From contig JAGFIU010000049.1 of the NCBI GenBank assembly GCA_024103355.1, forward strand, positions 1 to 56,958: a DNA stretch of 56,958 nt, in the 5' to 3' direction. Of the stretch, positions 27,392-37,467 are shown in pieces. Every line of letters starts with the position of its first letter. Position 1 is the first letter of the stretch. The translations under genes were made by a program, and so were the position numbers. This stretch comes from Bacteroidota bacterium (lineage in GTDB: Bacteria > Bacteroidota > Bacteroidia > NS11-12g > UBA955). The notes under the pieces are model-generated. The model saw only the letters and a list, made by a program, of their open reading frames with translations. It was not told where the DNA came from and did no database searches.

Positions 27392-30300
27392 CTACATACT
27401 CCTTCTGTACTGACCACCAACATTAAACAAGGCATCTGTAATTTGACCAATTGAACAAAACTTACCTGCTTCCATCAAAGCTGCAAACGTGTTTTTATTA
27501 TGAATTGCATTTAATTGCAAGTCTTTTAGGGCAGTAGCAGCGATTTTTCTATTTCTTTGTCTTAGGTTATTGATAGTCTGAATTTGAATATCTTTTTCTT
27601 CGTCAGTAGCTCTAATCACCTCTTTGGGTATAATAGTAGGAGAACCTTGGCTGTTCAGAAATGTATTGACACCAATAATTGGGAACTCTCCTGATTGTTT
27701 GAGCTTTTCATAATACAAACTCTCTTCCTGAATAGTACTGCGTTGGTACATTGTTTCCATTGCACCTAAAACACCTCCTCTATCAGTGATTCTGTCAAAC
27801 TCTGCATAAACAGCTTCTTCAACTAAATCTGTCAATTCTTCAATAATGAAAGAACCTTGAAGCGGGTTTTCATTTTTTGCCAAACCTAATTCTCGGTTGA
27901 TAATAAGCTGAATTGCCATAGCTCTTCTCACAGACTCCTCTGTGGGTGTGGTGATAGCTTCATCATAAGCATTGGTATGCAGGGAATTACAATTATCATA
28001 GATTGCATAGAGCGCTTGCAACGTAGTTCTAATATCGTTAAAATCAATTTCTTGTGCGTGCAAGGAGCGCCCACTTGTTTGGATATGATATTTTAGCATT
28101 TGAGAACGAGCATCTGCACCATATTTATGTTTCATTGCTTTTGCCCAAATGCGTCTTGCCACACGTCCAATAACTGCATATTCAGGGTCAATTCCGTTGC
28201 TGAAAAAGAAAGATAGATTAGGACCAAAATCATCAATGTTCATCCCTCTTGACAGATAATATTCAACATAGGTAAATCCGTTGGCAAGGGTGAAAGCAAG
28301 TTGAGAGATTGGGTTTGCACCGGCTTCTGCAATATGATATCCGGAAATTGAAACTGAGTAAAAATTTCTGATTTTGTTTTGTATAAAATATTCCTGAACA
28401 TCTCCCATCAATCGCAGGGCAAACTCAGTACTGAATATACATGTATTTTGAGCTTGGTCTTCTTTAAGGATATCTGCTTGTACAGTTCCTCTGACTTGTG
28501 CCAAAGTGCTTGCCTTAATTTTATCATAAACGTTCTGTGGCAGCACCTGATCGCCTGAAACACCCAACAACATCAATCCCAGTCCGTCATTCCCATCAGG
28601 TAGTTTCCCATGATATTGTGGTACAGGTTGTCCGTAACTTTTGTAAATCTTGGCAATTTTCTTTTTCACCTCACTTTCCAAGCCATTTTGTTTAATATAA
28701 ATCTCACATTGCTGGTCAATGGCGGCATTCATAAAAAAGGCAAGCATTATGGGGGCGGGTCCGTTGATAGTCATAGACACTGAAGTCTTTGGATTGGCAA
28801 GGTCAAAACCGCTGTATAGTTTTTTTGCGTCATCCAAACAACAGATACTCACTCCTGCATTACCAATTTTCCCGTGTATATCAGGTCGCAAGTCAGGGTC
28901 GCGACCATAGAGTGTAACAGAATCAAAAGCAGTTGACAATCTTTTTGCCGACATTCCTTTGCTCACATAATGAAAACGCTTATTGGTTCTTTCCGGTCCA
29001 CCTTCTCCTGCAAACATTCTGGTAGGATCTTCACCTTCTCTTTTGAAAGGATATATCCCCGCTGCATAAGGGAACTCGCCAGGAAAATTTTCAGTCAATA
29101 CCCAAAGCAATATATCGCCCCAACTGCTGTATCGCGGTACAGAGATTTTGGGAATCTGTGAATGAGACAGAGATTCGGTATGAGTCAAAATTTTGATTTG
29201 TTTATCACGTACTTTAAAAATAAAATACTCGTCTTTGAAAGCCTTGATTTTCTTAGCCCAATTCGTAATAATATCCCAATGATGAGGGTTTAAGTTTTTC
29301 TTCTCTTTATGAAATTGAGCCACCATTTTTTTCAACAAATCATCTGAGCCTTTGTAGTTGGGGTTTGAGAGCAAATCCTCACCACCAAAACTTAAGATTG
29401 CCTGATATAAGCCATATAATTTGGAGGCTATTGCTGATTGTTTGATTGCATTGTTGTTATACAACCTGTTATTTTCAGTGATTTCGCTCAAATAGCGTGT
29501 TCTGTTTGGTGGAATAATAAATACTTTTTCAGATGGCTCTTGTGCCAACGCTTTGCCGGAACCAAATTTAATCCCTGATTTTTCTTCAATCACAGACATC
29601 AATTTGTGATAAAGATTATTCATTCCGGGGTCATTAAATTGAGAGGCAATAGAACCAAACACAGGCATATCATCCTGTTTCAGATTGAATAATTTATGGT
29701 TACGCTGGTATTGTTTCTTAACATCTCTGAGCGCGTCCAAAGCTCCTTTTTTATCAAACTTATTGATGGCAACAACATCTGCGAAATCCAGCATTTCAAT
29801 CTTTTCCAACTGTGAAGCAGCACCATATTCGGGTGTCATCACATATAATGTAGCATCTGAATGCTCAGTGATTTCACTTTCTGACTGGCCAATACCTGAA
29901 GTTTCCAAAACTATCAAATCAAAAGTCGAAGATTTGAGAACAGAAATAGCATCATCAACATACTGGCTCAACGAAAGGTTACTTTGTCGCGTTGCCATAG
30001 AACGCATATACACTCTTTCGTTGTTAATTGAATTCATTCTGATTCTGTCACCCAACAATGCACCTCCTGTTTTTTTCTTACTGGGATCTACTGAAATAAT
30101 TGCTATAGTTTTGTCAGGAAAATCATTCAGGTATCTTCGTACAAATTCATCAACCAAGCTAGATTTACCTGCACCACCGGTACCGGTAATACCAAAAACC
30201 GGAGTCTTGGACTTTGTAGAGATTGACTTTGAAATTTCTTTGAATTGTTTGGGGTTATTTTCAGCAAGAGAAATAAGCCTTGAGATTGTGTTTTCATCCT

Positions 30301-30796
30301 TTTTGGCTAATAATTTTTTAATCTTATCTGAGCTTGGCAGTTCCGGTTTTTTGCTATAATCTTTATCAATTGATTTTATCAAGTCATTAATCATCCCTTG
30401 CAGTCCCAGACTTCTTCCGTCATCGGGGGAATAGATTCGTGCAATCCCGTATTTCATTAAATCTTTGATTTCAGATGGCAAGATAACACCTCCGCCTCCA
30501 CCGAATATTTTGATATGTCCTGCTCCGCGCTCTTTCAGCAAGTCGTACATATACTTAAAGTATTCATTGTGTCCGCCTTGATAACTGGTCATTGCAATTG
30601 CATCAGCATCTTCTTGTATGGCAGTATTAACAACTTCTAAAGCACTTCTGTCATGTCCTAGATGAATAACTTCTGCACCGGTTCCCTGAATAATTCTACG
30701 CATAATATTGATGGCAGCATCATGTCCATCAAAGAGAGAAGCGGCAGTTACAATACGAATTTTGTGTTTGGGATTATAAACTTCTTGATCTTTCAT
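27392..30796 (-). CDS. icmF: Fused isobutyryl-CoA mutase (IcmF)
   Basis: A coenzyme-B12 enzyme that interconverts isobutyryl-CoA and n-butyryl-CoA, fused to its own G-protein chaperone. It has 1134 residues. Residues 1-145 are the cobalamin-binding domain with DGHDAA (His25 as lower ligand), SYQGGH and the GGGG loop. About 195-450 is the MeaB-like GTPase with P-loop GTGGAGKSS. About 550-1134 is the mutase barrel ([31 protein letters not shown]). The residues equivalent to the methylmalonyl-CoA mutase pair Tyr89/Arg207 are Phe595 and Gln783, the isobutyryl-type pair, so a plain methylmalonyl-CoA mutase is unlikely. A promoter lies 31 bases upstream. Related isovaleryl/pivalyl-CoA activity cannot be excluded. 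Confidence 0.93.
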
Positions 30797-30860: not shown

Positions 30861-33056
30861 TTAAAATCCTAATTGAGGCAATAGATTCTCATTGGGTTGA
30901 TAAGGGGCGCATTCCCACAAAGGGGGGGTACTTACAACTTGAGGAATATCAAGTGGTTCCAATTTGTAATCCAAATCTTTGTCAGCGATAACAGCTTTAA
31001 TAAAATTTGCAAAAATGGGTAATGCTGAATTGGCTCCCTGACCTAAACTTGTACTTCTGAATCTGACAGCACGGCTATCACAACCAACCCATGTTGCTGT
31101 GACTAAATCACGGGTAACACCCATAAACCAGCCATCTGAGTTACTTTGCGTAGTGCCCGTTTTCCCTCCAATCGTACCTTCAATCTTATATCTACCTCTG
31201 AGTCTTGCTCCTGTCCCAAAGTTTACCACACCTTCTAAGAATTTAAAAATAGTGTAGGCTTTTTCTTCTGTCAGCACTTGGTTAATTTTCTTCGGTGCAA
31301 ACTCAGCGAGAACATTCCCATTTTTGTCTTCAATTCTAGTGAGAAAAGTAGGTTCAATCCAATTTCCTTTATTAGCGAAGACACTGAATGCGCTCGCCAT
31401 TTCCATAACCGAAATATCGCACACTCCAAGACAAATGGAATAAACTGCTTCTAGTTTTGAGCTATCAATACCCATTTTACGAACAAAGTCAACTACATTT
31501 TGCGGGCCGGATTCGCCCAAACTTTTCATTAATTGGGCTGTATATAGATTATCTGAGTTTGCAAGTCCTTCGGGCATATTCATATATCCACCACTGCTTC
31601 CATCTGAATTTTTAGGCGACCAGGTCTGGCCATTGTCTATAAAAAATGTAGTTTGTTCTCTAGGGAAATATTCGCAAGGATTTGCACCAAGATAAAGCGC
31701 TGAAGCATAGAAAAGTGGTTTGAAAGTAGAGCCAACTTGTCTGGTCGCACTTTTGTTTACATGGTCATATTGGAAATATTTATGATTAATCCCTCCCACC
31801 CATGCTTTAATTTGACCTGAATGTGGGTCGATGGCTACAAAACCTGTTTGAAGAAATTGAGCGTAATATTTAACTGAATCCAATGGACTCATGACAGTAT
31901 CAATTTCTCCCTTCCATGTAAAAAGAGTCATCCCTACGGGTTTGTTCATTTCTTTCCAAATGAGAGTAGTATCTCCATTTAATTCTTCTTTTAAACTACG
32001 ATATCTATCGGTCTTTTTGGCTTCTGTTTTCGGAAAGCTTTTCAACTCAGCCCAATTCTCTGCTCGCCAAGGTACCCTCTTTCCCCAATTTTTATAAAAA
32101 TCTTCTTGAAGTGTGGTTAAGTGAAATTTGACCGCTCTTTCTGCATGTTCTTGCATACGAGAATCTATAGTGGTATAGATTTTTAGTCCATCCTTATAAA
32201 TATCAATTCCTTTCTCTTTGCACCAAGGTATCAAAATCTTCTTTAAATATTCTCTAAAATAAGGTGCTAATCCTTCATTATGAGAATTTTCGATATAATT
32301 AAGTGTGATTGGCAAGGCTTTTAAGCTGTCATACTCATTTTGTGCAATAAATTTATACTTTGCCATTTGAAAAAGTACGACATTTCTTCGTTTAATTGAA
32401 TTATCCAGATTTGATTTTGGACTAAACTTTGTGATTGCCTTAAGTAGCCCAACAAGTACTGCCGACTCTTCTACTGTTAGGTCAATCGGTTCTTTATTAA
32501 AAAACTCTTTTGATGCAGATTTAATTCCATATGAATGCCCTGAGAATTGCACTGTATTGAGATACATAGTTATTATCTCATCTTTTGTATAAGCCCGTTC
32601 CAACTCCACTGCTATAATCCACTCTTTGAGTTTTTGTATAATTCTTTTGAGTTTGCTACTATAATCAGGGTCATGAAATAAGTTCTTGGCTAACTGCTGA
32701 GTGATTGTGCTTCCTCCTCCTGAACCTCCGGCACCCGCTATAGCCCGTGCAAGACTCCTAAAGTCAATTCCTGCATGTTTGCTAAAACGAATATCTTCTG
32801 TTGCAATCAGTGCTTGAAACATGAATGGACTGATTTGAGAATATGATACATTAGAGCGGTTTTTATAGAAATACTTCCCTAACAAGACACCATCTTCTCC
32901 ATAAATTTCTGAGGCTATCTCACTCTTTGGATTTTCAAGTTCAACAATATCAGGCATTTTCCCGAGCATCCCCTTACTAATCCCATACATAAATAATACT
33001 CCGAAAATTAAGGCTCCGGCAAATGCAATCCATAAAATTATTAGTATTTTCTTCAA
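30861..33056 (-). CDS. Class A penicillin-binding protein (PBP1A-type)
   Basis: A bifunctional peptidoglycan glycosyltransferase and transpeptidase of the inner membrane. After one membrane helix near the N-terminus, the GT51 domain shows ALIATEDIRFSKHAGID with the catalytic Glu and GGSTITQQLAKN. The transpeptidase domain has the nucleophile motif STFK, a downstream SDN and KTGTTQSNSDGW. I place the start at TTG 33056 (731 residues). The alternative TTG 33083, nine codons upstream, is the TTG of a TATCTTTG promoter box but also overlaps the upstream gene's stop (TTGA), so translational coupling from 33083 remains possible. It follows the PorW/SprE-like gene. Confidence 0.94.
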   Translation of the reverse strand: MKKILIILWIAFAGALIFGVLFMYGISKGMLGKMPDIVELENPKSEIASEIYGEDGVLLGKYFYKNRSNVSYSQISPFMFQALIATEDIRFSKHAGIDFRSLARAIAGAGGSGGGSTITQQLAKNLFHDPDYSSKLKRIIQKLKEWIIAVELERAYTKDEIITMYLNTVQFSGHSYGIKSASKEFFNKEPIDLTVEESAVLVGLLKAITKFSPKSNLDNSIKRRNVVLFQMAKYKFIAQNEYDSLKALPITLNYIENSHNEGLAPYFREYLKKILIPWCKEKGIDIYKDGLKIYTTIDSRMQEHAERAVKFHLTTLQEDFYKNWGKRVPWRAENWAELKSFPKTEAKKTDRYRSLKEELNGDTTLIWKEMNKPVGMTLFTWKGEIDTVMSPLDSVKYYAQFLQTGFVAIDPHSGQIKAWVGGINHKYFQYDHVNKSATRQVGSTFKPLFYASALYLGANPCEYFPREQTTFFIDNGQTWSPKNSDGSSGGYMNMPEGLANSDNLYTAQLMKSLGESGPQNVVDFVRKMGIDSSKLEAVYSICLGVCDISVMEMASAFSVFANKGNWIEPTFLTRIEDKNGNVLAEFAPKKINQVLTEEKAYTIFKFLEGVVNFGTGARLRGRYKIEGTIGGKTGTTQSNSDGWFMGVTRDLVTATWVGCDSRAVRFRSTSLGQGANSALPIFANFIKAVIADKDLDYKLEPLDIPQVVSTPPLWECAPYQPNENLLPQLGF

Positions 33057-33079
33057 TTTTCTACTTGTCGATTGGAGGT

Positions 33080-35734
33080 TCAAAGATAGGTATTAAGGAA
33101 GTATTCCTGATATTCATCCCATTTTTTTTCCTTTAATAAGATTGAGAAATTGATTTTAGAAATAAACATAAAGTTCTTCTTATCAGCGGTTGATTTCAAA
33201 CTATTAATCAGAGAATTGTTCGCCATTACATCTTCAATATATTTTTTCACATCTTTTTGATTATAGAATCCCGTCACAATCAATACTCGTGTTTCTGAAC
33301 CAACAAAAGAGGTTGTAATCTGCAGACCCATGTTTGAACGAAAATCTCTATTGAAGTCAGAGAAGGCGATTTTAAGCATGTTCATGTCCATTTTCGGGGC
33401 GATATTGATAACAAAATAATACTCTTCTTTCTCAGTACTTTCCTTGAATGGATATATTTTGTTCTTAGCTTGGTCATTTTTCGAATTTTTGGTAGAGTCA
33501 TTGCCAAAAAATCTGTTGTATGCTCTTACTCTATCATCGGCAAGGTTACCTAGGGGTGTTCCTGAATAATTTGCAGCAATTTTACTCATAATAGAATAAT
33601 AATCTTGCATTTTTTTCTGCTCAGCCATGATGAGTCCATAGACATATTCAAACTTCCCTTCCATGTCATTACCCGAATACTGAGACTTGATAGAATCATA
33701 AATAGCAATGGCACCTTTATAATCTTGTTCTTTATATTTATGATAGAATAATTCGTATTGGTCTGATATAATCTCATCGGGAGAATTTCTTTCCCCCTTT
33801 ACCAATTCAGGGTTTGTTAATAATTGGTTAAATTTACTCTCTGGGAATTCAACATTTAAACGTTCTTTTAGATAGTTTGCTTTAGCAGAATTACCCTCAT
33901 TTTCATATATTTTAATCAGAAGATAAATTACATTTTCTCTGTAAGGATTGTTTTTATACTTTTCCAGAAATTGCTCAAGGATTTCCTTGGCTCTAATCGG
34001 TTCAGACAGTTTATTTCTGTATATGGTTCCTGCTTTAAAATAACTTTCACCCAGACTTTTTTCAGCATTCTCTTGTAATTTAATGTCAAACGGAACTTTC
34101 ACAAAATACTTTTGGTCTTCTTTCGCAATATCTTCCGGCATTCCCGTGTTAAATTCAATTTGATTGGAAGTATCCTGATGGATTGCAGTGTCAGATATAT
34201 CATTTTTCTTATATAAATCATTGTTTTCGGATTGTGCAATACTCTGAATTCTCCAAAAATCACCTAATTGTCTATTACCCCATAATTGAACAAAATCTCC
34301 CTCTCCTTTTGTCTTGAGTTGAGGGTTATAGAATGGGAAGCGCGAGTCAGTTCCTTGCCCTTGCACATTATTTTGACCCGGTATGCCTGCAAATGGATCA
34401 TTAAAATTTTGATTTTCAAACGGGTTATTTTTCCTTTCCTCCTCTTCCTCTTTCTTACGTCTTTCTTCTTCTTTAATTTTTATTAAGGTCTGCCTCCTGA
34501 AATCAGCATCTTTAGCCAGTCTTAGTAAACTGTCTTGGTATGAAATATTAACTAAATTGGTAATCAGGTCTGTTAAGATAAGGTGACGCGCGCTAATTGC
34601 TTTGTAATCCGGGGATTCCGGATTCAATACTTGTACAGCACTGTCATAGTATTTTTGTGCAAATAGATAATTTGTTTTTTCAAAGTAAAGTTCTGCAACA
34701 AGTAAGTAGATTTTTGATTTTAAAACTTTATTATCTTTTGAATAGGTTAAGGCTTGTTTAAAATATTCTAGTGCAGAGTTCTTTTGTCCTTGGGAAAATT
34801 CAATCATCCCTAATTCATAATAAATTTGGTCAAGCAAGTCTAGGTTTTTGTCATCCTTCAACATTTTTGAAAGAATGTTCTTTCCTTTTCCAATATTATG
34901 AATTGGTTTTTGGGTGTAAAGTCGAACCATATTGATTCTCGAATAAAAGTTAAACTCATAAGGAGCATTGGATTTAATAACCTTATTGAAATATTTAATT
35001 GCTTCAAGAGGTTGATTGTTTAACATAGCAAGTTGTCCGGCCACAAAATTTCTTCTATATTTATAATCTTTACTTTTGAGTCGAGGCATTGCTTTTTTTA
35101 ATCTATCATAAGCCAATGCGTATTTGCCTTGGCGAATCAGCCCTTCAGCACTAACAATAAATAACTCTTTTTTCAGTTTTTTTGGGAATGCTTTGTCAGC
35201 AATCATTAAATCAGAAACAGCAACTGCTTCATCGTATTTTTCGAGCATAATATACGATTTTACAATCCAAATTTCTGCCTCATAAGCAATTAGAGAATTC
35301 TTGTAAGTGCTGGCAACATACTGAAATGCCTCAAGGGCAGCAAAGAAGTCCCCTTTAAAAAAATCTGCTTTGCCTATCAACAACCAGCTGTTATCAACCC
35401 ATCGCCCTAATTGTCTCCGTGTTATTATATGATTGCATTTTTTAATAGCCTCATCCATTTGTGGCGTATTAGATTTAAGTGTAGCTTGGTCAGAGAAGGG
35501 AAACAGTTTTACTACAGCATCGAAATTATCAATATTTGACAACTCCGCATTTTTCTGCGCCTCTTTTACTCTTTCATTTGCATTAAAGAAATAGTTATAA
35601 TGCGACACAGTGTTGATGTATTCACGTTTAATAAATCCGGGTTTCTTTTGAGCATGTATACTCTCCAAACCCAAAAATGAAATCACGAGTACAATTTGAA
35701 TAAAGATTCTTTTATGATTGGCTATTGTTTTCAA
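33080..35734 (-). CDS. T9SS PorW/SprE-like tetratricopeptide protein
   Basis: A large periplasmic TPR protein of 884 residues that I match to PorW/SprE, needed for type IX secretion and, where present, gliding. PorW links the outer-membrane core complex to the translocon. Supporting pattern: the N-terminal block with SHYNYFFNANERVKEA and LGRWVDNSWLLIGKADFF, a central array of TPR helices, a low-complexity acidic/Asn stretch near residues 425-460, and a C-terminal domain with YYFVINIA, FSDFNRDF and an F..KINF..LL strand. The signal peptide ends near IHAQ without a Cys, whereas characterised PorW/SprE are lipoproteins. It overlaps or abuts the PBP gene. The family call is by recognition of pattern. 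Confidence 0.8.
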   Translation of the reverse strand: MKTIANHKRIFIQIVLVISFLGLESIHAQKKPGFIKREYINTVSHYNYFFNANERVKEAQKNAELSNIDNFDAVVKLFPFSDQATLKSNTPQMDEAIKKCNHIITRRQLGRWVDNSWLLIGKADFFKGDFFAALEAFQYVASTYKNSLIAYEAEIWIVKSYIMLEKYDEAVAVSDLMIADKAFPKKLKKELFIVSAEGLIRQGKYALAYDRLKKAMPRLKSKDYKYRRNFVAGQLAMLNNQPLEAIKYFNKVIKSNAPYEFNFYSRINMVRLYTQKPIHNIGKGKNILSKMLKDDKNLDLLDQIYYELGMIEFSQGQKNSALEYFKQALTYSKDNKVLKSKIYLLVAELYFEKTNYLFAQKYYDSAVQVLNPESPDYKAISARHLILTDLITNLVNISYQDSLLRLAKDADFRRQTLIKIKEEERRKKEEEEERKNNPFENQNFNDPFAGIPGQNNVQGQGTDSRFPFYNPQLKTKGEGDFVQLWGNRQLGDFWRIQSIAQSENNDLYKKNDISDTAIHQDTSNQIEFNTGMPEDIAKEDQKYFVKVPFDIKLQENAEKSLGESYFKAGTIYRNKLSEPIRAKEILEQFLEKYKNNPYRENVIYLLIKIYENEGNSAKANYLKERLNVEFPESKFNQLLTNPELVKGERNSPDEIISDQYELFYHKYKEQDYKGAIAIYDSIKSQYSGNDMEGKFEYVYGLIMAEQKKMQDYYSIMSKIAANYSGTPLGNLADDRVRAYNRFFGNDSTKNSKNDQAKNKIYPFKESTEKEEYYFVINIAPKMDMNMLKIAFSDFNRDFRSNMGLQITTSFVGSETRVLIVTGFYNQKDVKKYIEDVMANNSLINSLKSTADKKNFMFISKINFSILLKEKKWDEYQEYFLNTYL
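33081..33088 (-). promoter_or_regulatory. -7 promoter box upstream of the PBP gene (minus strand)
   Basis: CAAAGATA on plus is TATCTTTG on minus. It overlaps the stop of the PorW/SprE-like gene and ends 24 bases before TTG 33056, giving the PBP gene a possible internal promoter. Confidence 0.45.
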
Positions 35735-35753
35735 GTTTTCCTACATAACTTTG
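35725..35753 (+). promoter_or_regulatory. Promoter of the M23 peptidase gene
   Basis: TTG (35725-35727), an 18-base spacer and TAACTTTG (35746-35753); ATG 35789 follows 35 bases later. It overlaps the 5' end of the divergent PorW/SprE-like gene (ATG 35734). Confidence 0.65.
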
Positions 35754-35788
35754 AAACCGCGAAAATATTTTACTTCTGTTAACTTTTC

Positions 35789-36688
35789 ATGAAAAACCGA
35801 AAAAAGCGACCGAGTTGGATTAGAAAACTGCGTAATCGCTATCGATTGATGCTAATAAATGAGTCAAATTTTCAAGAAAAATTGACTTTAAAATTAACAC
35901 CACTCAGTGTCTTATTACTTTTTTTTGGTGGGTTTTTAGTTTTTACTGTAATCAGCTGGTTGCTTATCTTCGCAATCCCCTCATTGCGAGTATACATGCC
36001 GGGATATGAGTTTGACAAAAACAGAAAGCAAAAAAAAGAGTTGATGCTCAGCATAAATGAAATCAATAATTCAATTAATAAATTAGAAGAAAGGCGAGTG
36101 TTGTTGGATATGTTACTCAGAGGTGACAAACTAACTAAAACGGATATTGCATTTCTACAAGACCAAATTGAACCTGGAAAGGAATACCAAGAAAGAGAGC
36201 AAATCATTTCATCAGATACTACGAGTGATGTCGACAGAACCAATCCCTCAACATTATTTATGGAACCATCGGGAAAAATGTTTAGTCTTAACAACAATGC
36301 AACCACACTTAGTTTGATATCCGGACCATTTTATCCGCCTCTCTCAGGGAAAGTGACTTCATTTTATGAAGCTTCAGTACATCCTGCTATTGATATCGTG
36401 CCAAACAAGGATGAGACTGTGAAAGCCGCTCTTGATGGTATAGTAGTTTTCACAGGTTGGACACCTGACAATGGAAATGTAATTTGTATTCAGCACCCGG
36501 AAAATTGGCTGACTGTGTATAAACATTGCGCTCAAGTATTTAGTAAATTGGGGAATAGGGTAAATGCAGGAGAGGTTATAGGGATTGTTGGTAATACAGG
36601 GGAACTCACAAGCGGACCGCATCTCCATTTTGAATTATGGCACAATGGGGTAACCCTTAATCCTCTCAGTTTTATTAGTTTTAATTAA
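35789..36688 (+). CDS. M23 family (LytM-type) metallopeptidase, membrane anchored
   Basis: A predicted zinc endopeptidase acting on peptidoglycan cross-links, 299 residues long. A basic N-terminus is followed by one membrane helix at about residues 38-62, a short coiled coil around 80-110, a linker and the LytM domain. The zinc ligands H198 and D202 (HPAID) and H278/H280 (GPHLHFEL) are all present, so the domain should be catalytic and not just an EnvC-like activator. It is divergent from PorW/SprE-PBP and followed after eight bases by a lipoprotein gene. The arrangement places wall synthesis and wall cleavage back to back. Confidence 0.93.
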   Translation: MKNRKKRPSWIRKLRNRYRLMLINESNFQEKLTLKLTPLSVLLLFFGGFLVFTVISWLLIFAIPSLRVYMPGYEFDKNRKQKKELMLSINEINNSINKLEERRVLLDMLLRGDKLTKTDIAFLQDQIEPGKEYQEREQIISSDTTSDVDRTNPSTLFMEPSGKMFSLNNNATTLSLISGPFYPPLSGKVTSFYEASVHPAIDIVPNKDETVKAALDGIVVFTGWTPDNGNVICIQHPENWLTVYKHCAQVFSKLGNRVNAGEVIGIVGNTGELTSGPHLHFELWHNGVTLNPLSFISFN

Positions 36689-36696
36689 TTATCTAT

Positions 36697-37467
36697 ATGA
36701 TGAAATCACTCCTATTACAGTTTCTTGTTTTTTTGTGTTTCGCATTCCTTCAATCATGCACACCCAAAACTTCTCCTACAAATCAATCAATAGACACTCA
36801 CAATATTATCACTCCTGACAGTCTACCTCCAATCAAGGATAACCATATTAACAATTCCACTTCCTCTCTGGCATATGAGCAGTTCCCTTTTGGTTGTCCA
36901 ACCTTAGTAAATTTTGTATTTTCTGATGAGTGGAGAATCATTGACCATTCAGGGACTAGAGAGATGGGGTTTAGTATTTATCAACGTGCTTTGCTAGATA
37001 TTAATAAGTGCTTGCAACAAATTAATACACAACCACCAATCCAAAGACCAAAAATCAAGAAAGTAAATTACCTTAGATACAATAGCCATGATTCGCTTGC
37101 TTGCGATAATATTGCTTCTACTGATAGTATTATAATTAAATTACCCAATATGGGGCGTTATAAATCTTATTATGCTTATGGAAACCTTCACAATGAAAAC
37201 CCATCAGACACGATTGCTCCTGAAGAGGGCTGTTTTGAATATGGTAATCTTGTTTTGGTTGACTCTGTTTCAAACTCTGCAAAAGTCATAAACTTGTATC
37301 TGATGAAGCAAAAAGAGGATAAAATATTTCTAAGGTTATTTTATATTGATGCAGAATCACTCATTCATATTATGGAGGTGAATTGCAATACAACTAATTG
37401 TTTTATAACAAATCGTTTTACGGCATCTGTTGATAATAATGGAAGCTTTAGAGTAAACAAAAAATAA
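36697..37467 (+). CDS. Lipoprotein of unknown function
   Basis: I do not recognise this 256-residue protein. The signal peptide ends in a clear lipobox FLQSC. A Ser/Thr/Asn/Pro-rich linker follows (residues 21-55), then a domain of about 200 residues with strands (YYAYGNLHN, GNLVLVDSVSN, VINLYLMKQ, FLRLFYIDA) and five further Cys residues spread through it. It lies eight bases after the M23 peptidase gene and is followed by a strong bidirectional terminator, so the two form a two-gene operon. No function can be assigned. Confidence 0.75.
   Translation: MMKSLLLQFLVFLCFAFLQSCTPKTSPTNQSIDTHNIITPDSLPPIKDNHINNSTSSLAYEQFPFGCPTLVNFVFSDEWRIIDHSGTREMGFSIYQRALLDINKCLQQINTQPPIQRPKIKKVNYLRYNSHDSLACDNIASTDSIIIKLPNMGRYKSYYAYGNLHNENPSDTIAPEEGCFEYGNLVLVDSVSNSAKVINLYLMKQKEDKIFLRLFYIDAESLIHIMEVNCNTTNCFITNRFTASVDNNGSFRVNKK

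Follow-up and report, generated by a model that had tools for sequence, protein, structure and literature searches.

Why should a gene for a component of the type IX secretion system (T9SS) abut the gene of a cell wall synthase and face that of a putative wall peptidase? This arrangement is found on contig JAGFIU010000049.1 of a Bacteroidota bacterium (assembly GCA_024103355.1), a stretch of 56,958 nucleotides (nt) that is called the window here. On it, the T9SS gene sprE (porW) is followed by a gene for a class A penicillin-binding protein (PBP) and is transcribed divergently from a gene for an M23 protein. Our comparison of related genomes demonstrates that the association of sprE with wall genes is real: it is whole in the taxonomic order to which the window belongs and partial across the class Bacteroidia. 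That the T9SS and wall synthesis are coupled through this locus is something we infer from the gene order, which hints at such a link and neither proves nor excludes it. Among the papers listed by our literature searches on SprE/PorW or bactofilin, none described the locus in its title or the opening of its abstract, and there was nothing on it in the consulted part of PMC5714932. The features concerned are:

30861..33083, minus strand: class A PBP (PBP1A-like), with a TTG start inside the sprE stop and matches to Transgly and Transpeptidase
33080..35734, minus strand: sprE/porW, encoding the T9SS extended-translocon tetratricopeptide repeat (TPR) protein of 884 amino acids (aa), with a type I-like signal peptide and no lipobox; matched by NF052312
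33083..33433, minus strand: conserved C-terminal domain of SprE (residues 768-884), modeled as ferredoxin-like alpha/beta (alignment A3, AlphaFold2, hhalign)
35735..35788, no strand: divergent gap of 54 nt between sprE and the M23 gene, with one TAnnTTTG on the plus strand at 35746
35789..36688, plus strand: LmdC-like M23 protein, with a short basic N-terminal tail and a hydrophobic segment (both by eye) and an M23 domain with H198, D202, H278 and H280
36697..37467, plus strand: small lipoprotein-like open reading frame (ORF), genus-specific, in the position that bactofilin occupies in relatives

The identities of the three central genes are supported by profile matches. SprE scored 521.1 bits against the PorW/SprE model NF052312 (cut-off 250), and the PBP matched Transgly (177 bits) and Transpeptidase (81 bits), both above the Pfam cut-offs, which makes it a class A enzyme. 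Its best NCBIfam match was the PBP1A family TIGR02074, but the 478 bits fall short of the 508.75 set as its cut-off, and where we write PBP1A we mean a likeness to that family. Inspected by eye, the translation keeps the SxxK, SxN and KTG motifs as well as those of the glycosyltransferase. The M23 protein matched Peptidase_M23 with 94 bits; its four active-site residues are all in place, and the 54-nt gap across which it diverges from sprE was confirmed, as the earlier note on this DNA had described. The overlap read there between sprE and the PBP gene was also seen: the sprE stop codon TGA (33082-33080) is nested in a TTGA that carries the TTG start of the PBP gene (33083-33081), giving an overlap of 4 nt (33083-33080) that recurs in the sister genome L109. 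Since both genes were called with TTG starts, this overlap hinges on the TTG of the PBP gene. The TAnnTTTG of the divergent gap, a Bacteroidota -7-like motif, recurs in the L109 gap as well; a promoter scan around the gap returned 2 sites vs 1.3 in shuffled sequences.

The genome behind the window (2.3 Mb in 60 contigs, completeness 100) possesses a T9SS translocon, as indicated by a SprA match of 2422 bits (TIGR04189, G000:C5). A single protein with a Transgly domain was found in it, and this is the PBP of the window. Six M23 matches, two of which share a frame, amount to five genes, the one facing sprE and four others. One bactofilin gene is present, on another contig, beside AtpI-like ORFs and atpB.

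To delimit the conservation of this neighborhood, we searched for sprE in genomes of the phylum (198), the order (97) and the class (246). The gene neighborhoods of 107 Bacteroidia loci were added to that of the window, making 108 under 32 family codes, the family of the window being f1. For the order, 40 loci were taken from the 96 genomes besides that of the window, with longer contigs preferred, and 20 additional class families were covered by one locus each. An outgroup of 53 loci came from other Bacteroidota classes, of which 52 were counted after L086, lacking a detectable SprE, had been dropped. We also considered 80 loci from named organisms, chosen as those that matched the window and six relatives best, so that this sample is uneven. 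Neighbors were labeled with profiles built from the loci themselves. A Pfam check of representative labels confirmed bactofilin, GldL, GldM, GldN, UvrC and ATP synthase A; AtpI/Z-like labels are positional, with no Pfam match over the cut-off, and atpE was left unlabeled.

The triad M23<>sprE-PBP1A, with <> marking divergence, was intact in 37 of the 40 evaluable loci of the order. The earlier note had suggested checking whether a four-gene locus is conserved and had named a non-conserved order among the outcomes that would speak against its reading; within the order, the opposite was found for three of the four genes. The triad also occurs outside the order, in f3 and f9, and parts of it in more families, but the full set is limited to 4 of the 32 (f1, f3, f9 and f41). 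The lipoprotein-like ORF at 36697, counted as the fourth gene, is not part of a conserved unit: it is present in 2 of the 97 order genomes, both of the window's genus, and found no family in Pfam/NCBIfam-type profile scans. The wider partner is bactofilin, which the note had missed. A bactofilin gene lies within 2.5 kb of sprE in 18 of the 32 families, a divergent M23 gene beside it in 14, and PBP1A directly downstream in seven (f1, 22/22 loci; f2, 4/4; f3, 4/7; f9, 6/6; f10, 2/2; f11, 1/1; f41, 15/18; L128, at a contig end, was left out of the PBP counts). At least one of the three is near sprE in 24 of the 32 Bacteroidia families. Among evaluable named loci, PBP1A was found in 32 of 76, M23 in 54 of 75 and bactofilin in 52 of 70. 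In the outgroup, the sprE-like gene has none of the three next to it (0/52 each). Where PBP1A follows sprE, the two genes are tightly spaced: counted from the last sense codon, the gap is 2-9 nt in 14 of the 15 f41 loci with an adjacent PBP, and in f1 it is mostly below 45 nt.

These partners occur in a small number of layouts. In the order, the genes run atpH-F-(E)-B, AtpI/Z-like, bactofilin and M23, followed by the divergent pair sprE and PBP1A. Many named loci, several of them titled Bacteroidales, have M23<>sprE-bactofilin-AtpI/Z-like. In these two main architectures M23 is always divergent from sprE, and bactofilin switches side, adjoining M23 in the first and sprE in the second. Family f5 has the layout sprE-bactofilin-ATP synthase, and f2, f9 and f10 often have uvrC after sprE-PBP1A, with gldN-gldM-gldL opposed. 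Genes labeled gldL, gldM or gldN lie within about 9 kb on either side of sprE in f2, f9, f10 and 11 of the 46 evaluable named loci. In the window's genus, M23<>sprE-PBP1A is intact and bactofilin is located with ATP synthase genes on another contig. The window carries one half, the right one, of an envelope block found in Bacteroidia, ATP synthase-AtpI/Z-like-bactofilin-M23<>sprE-PBP1A, which is split in this genus.

The M23 gene itself is variable. All four active-site residues are kept in 18 of 18 f41 loci and in all loci from the non-named class sample outside f1 and f3 that have an adjacent M23 gene. Of the 23 M23 genes in f1, the family of the window, just 3 keep the full set, with 8 degenerate and 12 truncated; all five in f3 are truncated. 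In the named loci the set is complete in 26 of 55, and contig ends affect three of the remainder (L165, L218, L228). The truncated genes are genuinely short, since bactofilin begins at most 91 nt past their end in 16 of the 17 f1 and f3 cases, the other (L047) having no labeled bactofilin; two of the truncated genes had no Pfam match. The M23 states require at least four changes on a quickly built sprE tree (50 rows); taken as losses, they are f3, one truncated f1 clade, one degenerate f1 clade, and L147. Wall cutting, which the earlier note had attributed to the locus, is therefore not a conserved property of it. Cutting is not what holds the M23 gene beside sprE, and the N-terminal membrane part of the protein is more conserved.

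A precedent for such a membrane part is LmdC of Hyphomonas neptunium, which is bitopic, carries a coiled coil and an M23 domain, and binds bactofilin through its cytoplasmic tail; bactofilin-M23 pairs are reported from 226 species of many phyla, including the Fibrobacterota-Chlorobiota-Bacteroidota (FCB) group (PMC10945521, in excerpt). As in that system, the M23 protein of the window has an N-terminal tail and a hydrophobic segment, and a bactofilin gene adjoins the M23 gene in the window's relatives. In contrast to it, the window's M23 gene stands beside sprE and PBP1A with bactofilin elsewhere in the genome, and the catalytic domain is lost in most sister loci. From this likeness we infer that the protein is an LmdC-like partner of bactofilin, with binding through its tail as a prediction.

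We favor, giving it slightly less than an even chance, the following explanation. sprE and PBP1A would be co-transcribed and translationally coupled, so that the cell would make its periplasmic T9SS translocon scaffold together with its only bifunctional wall synthase. The divergent M23 protein would serve as an LmdC-like membrane anchor for bactofilin and, where it is catalytic, might open crosslinks locally; its conserved contribution would be the anchor rather than the cutting. Bactofilin and this anchor may then mark or shape the part of the wall where PBP1A adds new material and T9SS complexes are built. A review treats the passage of the T9SS through the peptidoglycan as open and raises the anchoring of GldL/PorL via a cytoskeleton protein (PMC9127263, in excerpt). 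Candidates for a link between the T9SS and the wall can be named from the locus: the translocon scaffold, the cytoskeletal bactofilin with its putative membrane partner, and the class A PBP.

The main rival, a serious one that we rate as nearly as likely as the explanation just given, is that gene order has simply been inherited: a block around the ATP synthase genes would have been kept by descent or transcriptional convenience, with no coupling of secretion and wall. Several observations weigh against the coupling, some of them directly in favor of this rival. ATP synthase or AtpI/Z-like genes, which have no obvious link to either process, are found near sprE in 18 of the 32 families, and an old gene order may simply persist around them. 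The full triad and the PBP1A adjacency are confined to the four and seven families listed above, and eight families (f4, f44, f47, f53, f54, f60, f61 and f66) have sprE with none of its three wall or cytoskeleton neighbors. In the 18 loci of f5, which contains close relatives of F. johnsoniae, neither PBP1A nor M23 is beside sprE, and only bactofilin and ATP synthase genes are. A single genome stands behind 20 of the 32 families, as it does behind f7, f8 and f11. Where the M23 protein is assigned a catalytic part, the loss of catalysis in 20 of 23 f1 loci disfavors that part as well. T9SS-negative f2 genomes (G002, G448) retain class A PBPs without sprE; the PBP gene nearest to atpB is 51 kb away in G002 and on a different contig in G448, and in the f2 genome G080 sprE, a class A PBP gene and atpB all lie within 6 kb, a comparison that covers one genus. 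Against mere inheritance speaks that the partners recur in two architectures with M23 divergent from sprE in both. Moreover, the break in the window's genus fell between bactofilin and M23 and left M23, sprE and the PBP gene together, although this is one event only.

Two further results concern such T9SS-negative controls. Family f66 is uninformative as a control, since the block is missing as well from G403, the genome of this family that has sprE. Bactofilin had no match at E 0.001 in any of the 10 control genomes, which indicates that it is not required for the adjacency of sprE and the PBP gene. Apart from this, a 1.2-Mb Bacteroidia genome that is 99 percent complete (G459) had no SprE match and perhaps represents a reduced T9SS-negative lineage.

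SprE carries a second feature that bears on the question. Residues 29-733 of the window protein align to Flavobacterium johnsoniae SprE (PDB 8GL8 chain I, 8gl8_I) by TPR homology (E 8.4e-41), and this homology, together with the NF052312 match, ties it to F. johnsoniae SprE and Porphyromonas gingivalis PorW. Beyond the NF052312 match lies a domain formed by residues 768-884. It was detected in 102 of the 108 class loci and 30 of the 32 families, the exceptions being the two loci of f4, the one of f11 and 3 of the 18 of f5, and in 77 of the 80 named loci, where it is missing from L186 and L218 (contig edges) and from L234 (split sprE); it was found in none of the 52 outgroup loci. AlphaFold2 predicted a ferredoxin-like fold of the order b-a-b-b-a-a-a-b-a-a, with a predicted local distance difference test score (pLDDT) of 91.6 and a predicted template modeling score (pTM) of 0.86. 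Profile comparison connected the domain to the f2/f9/f10 C-termini at 99.8 percent and, by hhalign, to those of f5 at 95.4 percent (E 1.7e-8). The f5 profile in turn matches residues 759-869 of F. johnsoniae SprE (E 1.4e-42), and one f5 member closely matches that protein, which is how we link the family to F. johnsoniae. This segment, F759-P870 of F. johnsoniae SprE, is structurally unresolved, was called not conserved, and can be truncated without effect on the T9SS or gliding (Lauber et al., PMC10994853, in excerpt). The conservation of the domain across the Bacteroidia conflicts with its description as not conserved, and the dispensability for the T9SS of a domain so conserved calls for an explanation. 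A domain that is unneeded in T9SS assays offers a handle on a possible second function of SprE. Its link to the PBP adjacency is not strict, since f11, which lacks the domain, shows the adjacency. The window also differs from F. johnsoniae in having PBP1A directly downstream of sprE, which is absent in 18 of 18 f5 loci.

This domain could, alternatively, serve secretion alone by holding the PorN/GldN ring, without any business with the wall. Domain D6 of P. gingivalis PorW (aa 1052-1161) binds PorN (PMC8754138, in excerpt), and by position it resembles the C-terminal domain of long SprE proteins, e.g., residues 1039-1151 of 1152 in L046. Such a role is nevertheless unlikely in our view, because the F. 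johnsoniae truncation removed the domain harmlessly, D6 is stated to be absent from SprE (PMC8754138, in excerpt), and the PorW region is apparently not required either (PMC10994853, in excerpt).

Less probable still is a reading along the lines of the earlier note, in which the M23 endopeptidase would cut a hole in the wall for the T9SS ring and shaft and PBP1A would repair around it. In keeping with this, the M23 active site is intact here and in every locus of the non-named class sample outside f1 and f3 that has an adjacent M23 gene, and the crossing of the peptidoglycan by the T9SS shaft is called unresolved (PMC9127263, in excerpt). However, 20 of 23 f1 and 5 of 5 f3 loci have lost catalysis and still carry sprE, and the four other M23 genes of the window's genome could do the cutting.

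The least probable reading, which we rate as distinctly remote, gives SprE two clients, as the T9SS dish and as the counterpart of an Lpo-type regulator whose TPRs and C-terminal domain would reach the wall and license the adjacent, sole class A PBP, placing wall synthesis at translocons. LpoP, LpoA and CpoB are TPR proteins that regulate class A PBPs (PMC7267771, in excerpt), and these precedents make a direct contact between SprE and PBP1A worth considering, though nothing in our data shows such contact. Like LpoP of Pseudomonas aeruginosa and LpoA of Escherichia coli, SprE has TPRs, resides in the periplasm and goes with a class A PBP; unlike them, it is a T9SS component with no activation known, and the window's SprE has no lipobox by pattern.

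We also considered whether the C-terminal domain of SprE is a SPOR domain, and obtained no confirmation. Of the 37 Pfam families for 76 Bacteroidia members, the 25 that were listed did not include SPOR, hhalign to the SPOR-like C-termini of the outgroup gave 0.6 percent, and the topology is compatible but no SPOR entry was among the 50 rows listed by the structure searches. Those rows held generic ferredoxin/RNA recognition motif (RRM)-like folds, at best with a Foldseek E of 9.3e-3 and a Z of 7.2. Outside the Bacteroidia, C-termini of SprE-like proteins matched SPOR in 5 and TonB_C in 11 of the 52 loci (E 0.01; loci L048-L108), and among seven full-length outgroup proteins scanned, one SPOR and one TonB_C match exceeded the cut-offs. 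Profile comparison connected the Bacteroidia domain neither to the SPOR-like outgroup set nor to one TonB_C-like set; two TonB_C-like sets match each other.

Some minor observations concern the SprE proteins and their surroundings. The signal peptide of the window's SprE contains no cysteine, and the absence of a lipobox sets the protein apart from F. johnsoniae SprE and PorW. A lipoprotein signal is named in the title of the PorW/SprE family, but we did not treat it as defining, since 17 of 18 f41 loci do not match the pattern. A simple lipobox pattern was present in 9 of 23 f1, 1 of 18 f41 and 16 of 18 f5 loci, counts that come from a pattern scan with uncertain start codons; the window's SprE and most of those from f41 thus have no recognizable lipobox, though characterized SprE proteins are lipoproteins. 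In the named Bacteroidales locus L234, sprE is in two pieces, one of 578 aa and a downstream SprE-like ORF of 250 aa, before bactofilin. Directly downstream of the PBP gene of the window lies one further gene:

27392-30796: fused isobutyryl-CoA mutase IcmF (NF045497, 1731 bits, cut-off 1500)

IcmF-like matches also occur in L203, L244 and L253, at most about 5 kb from sprE.

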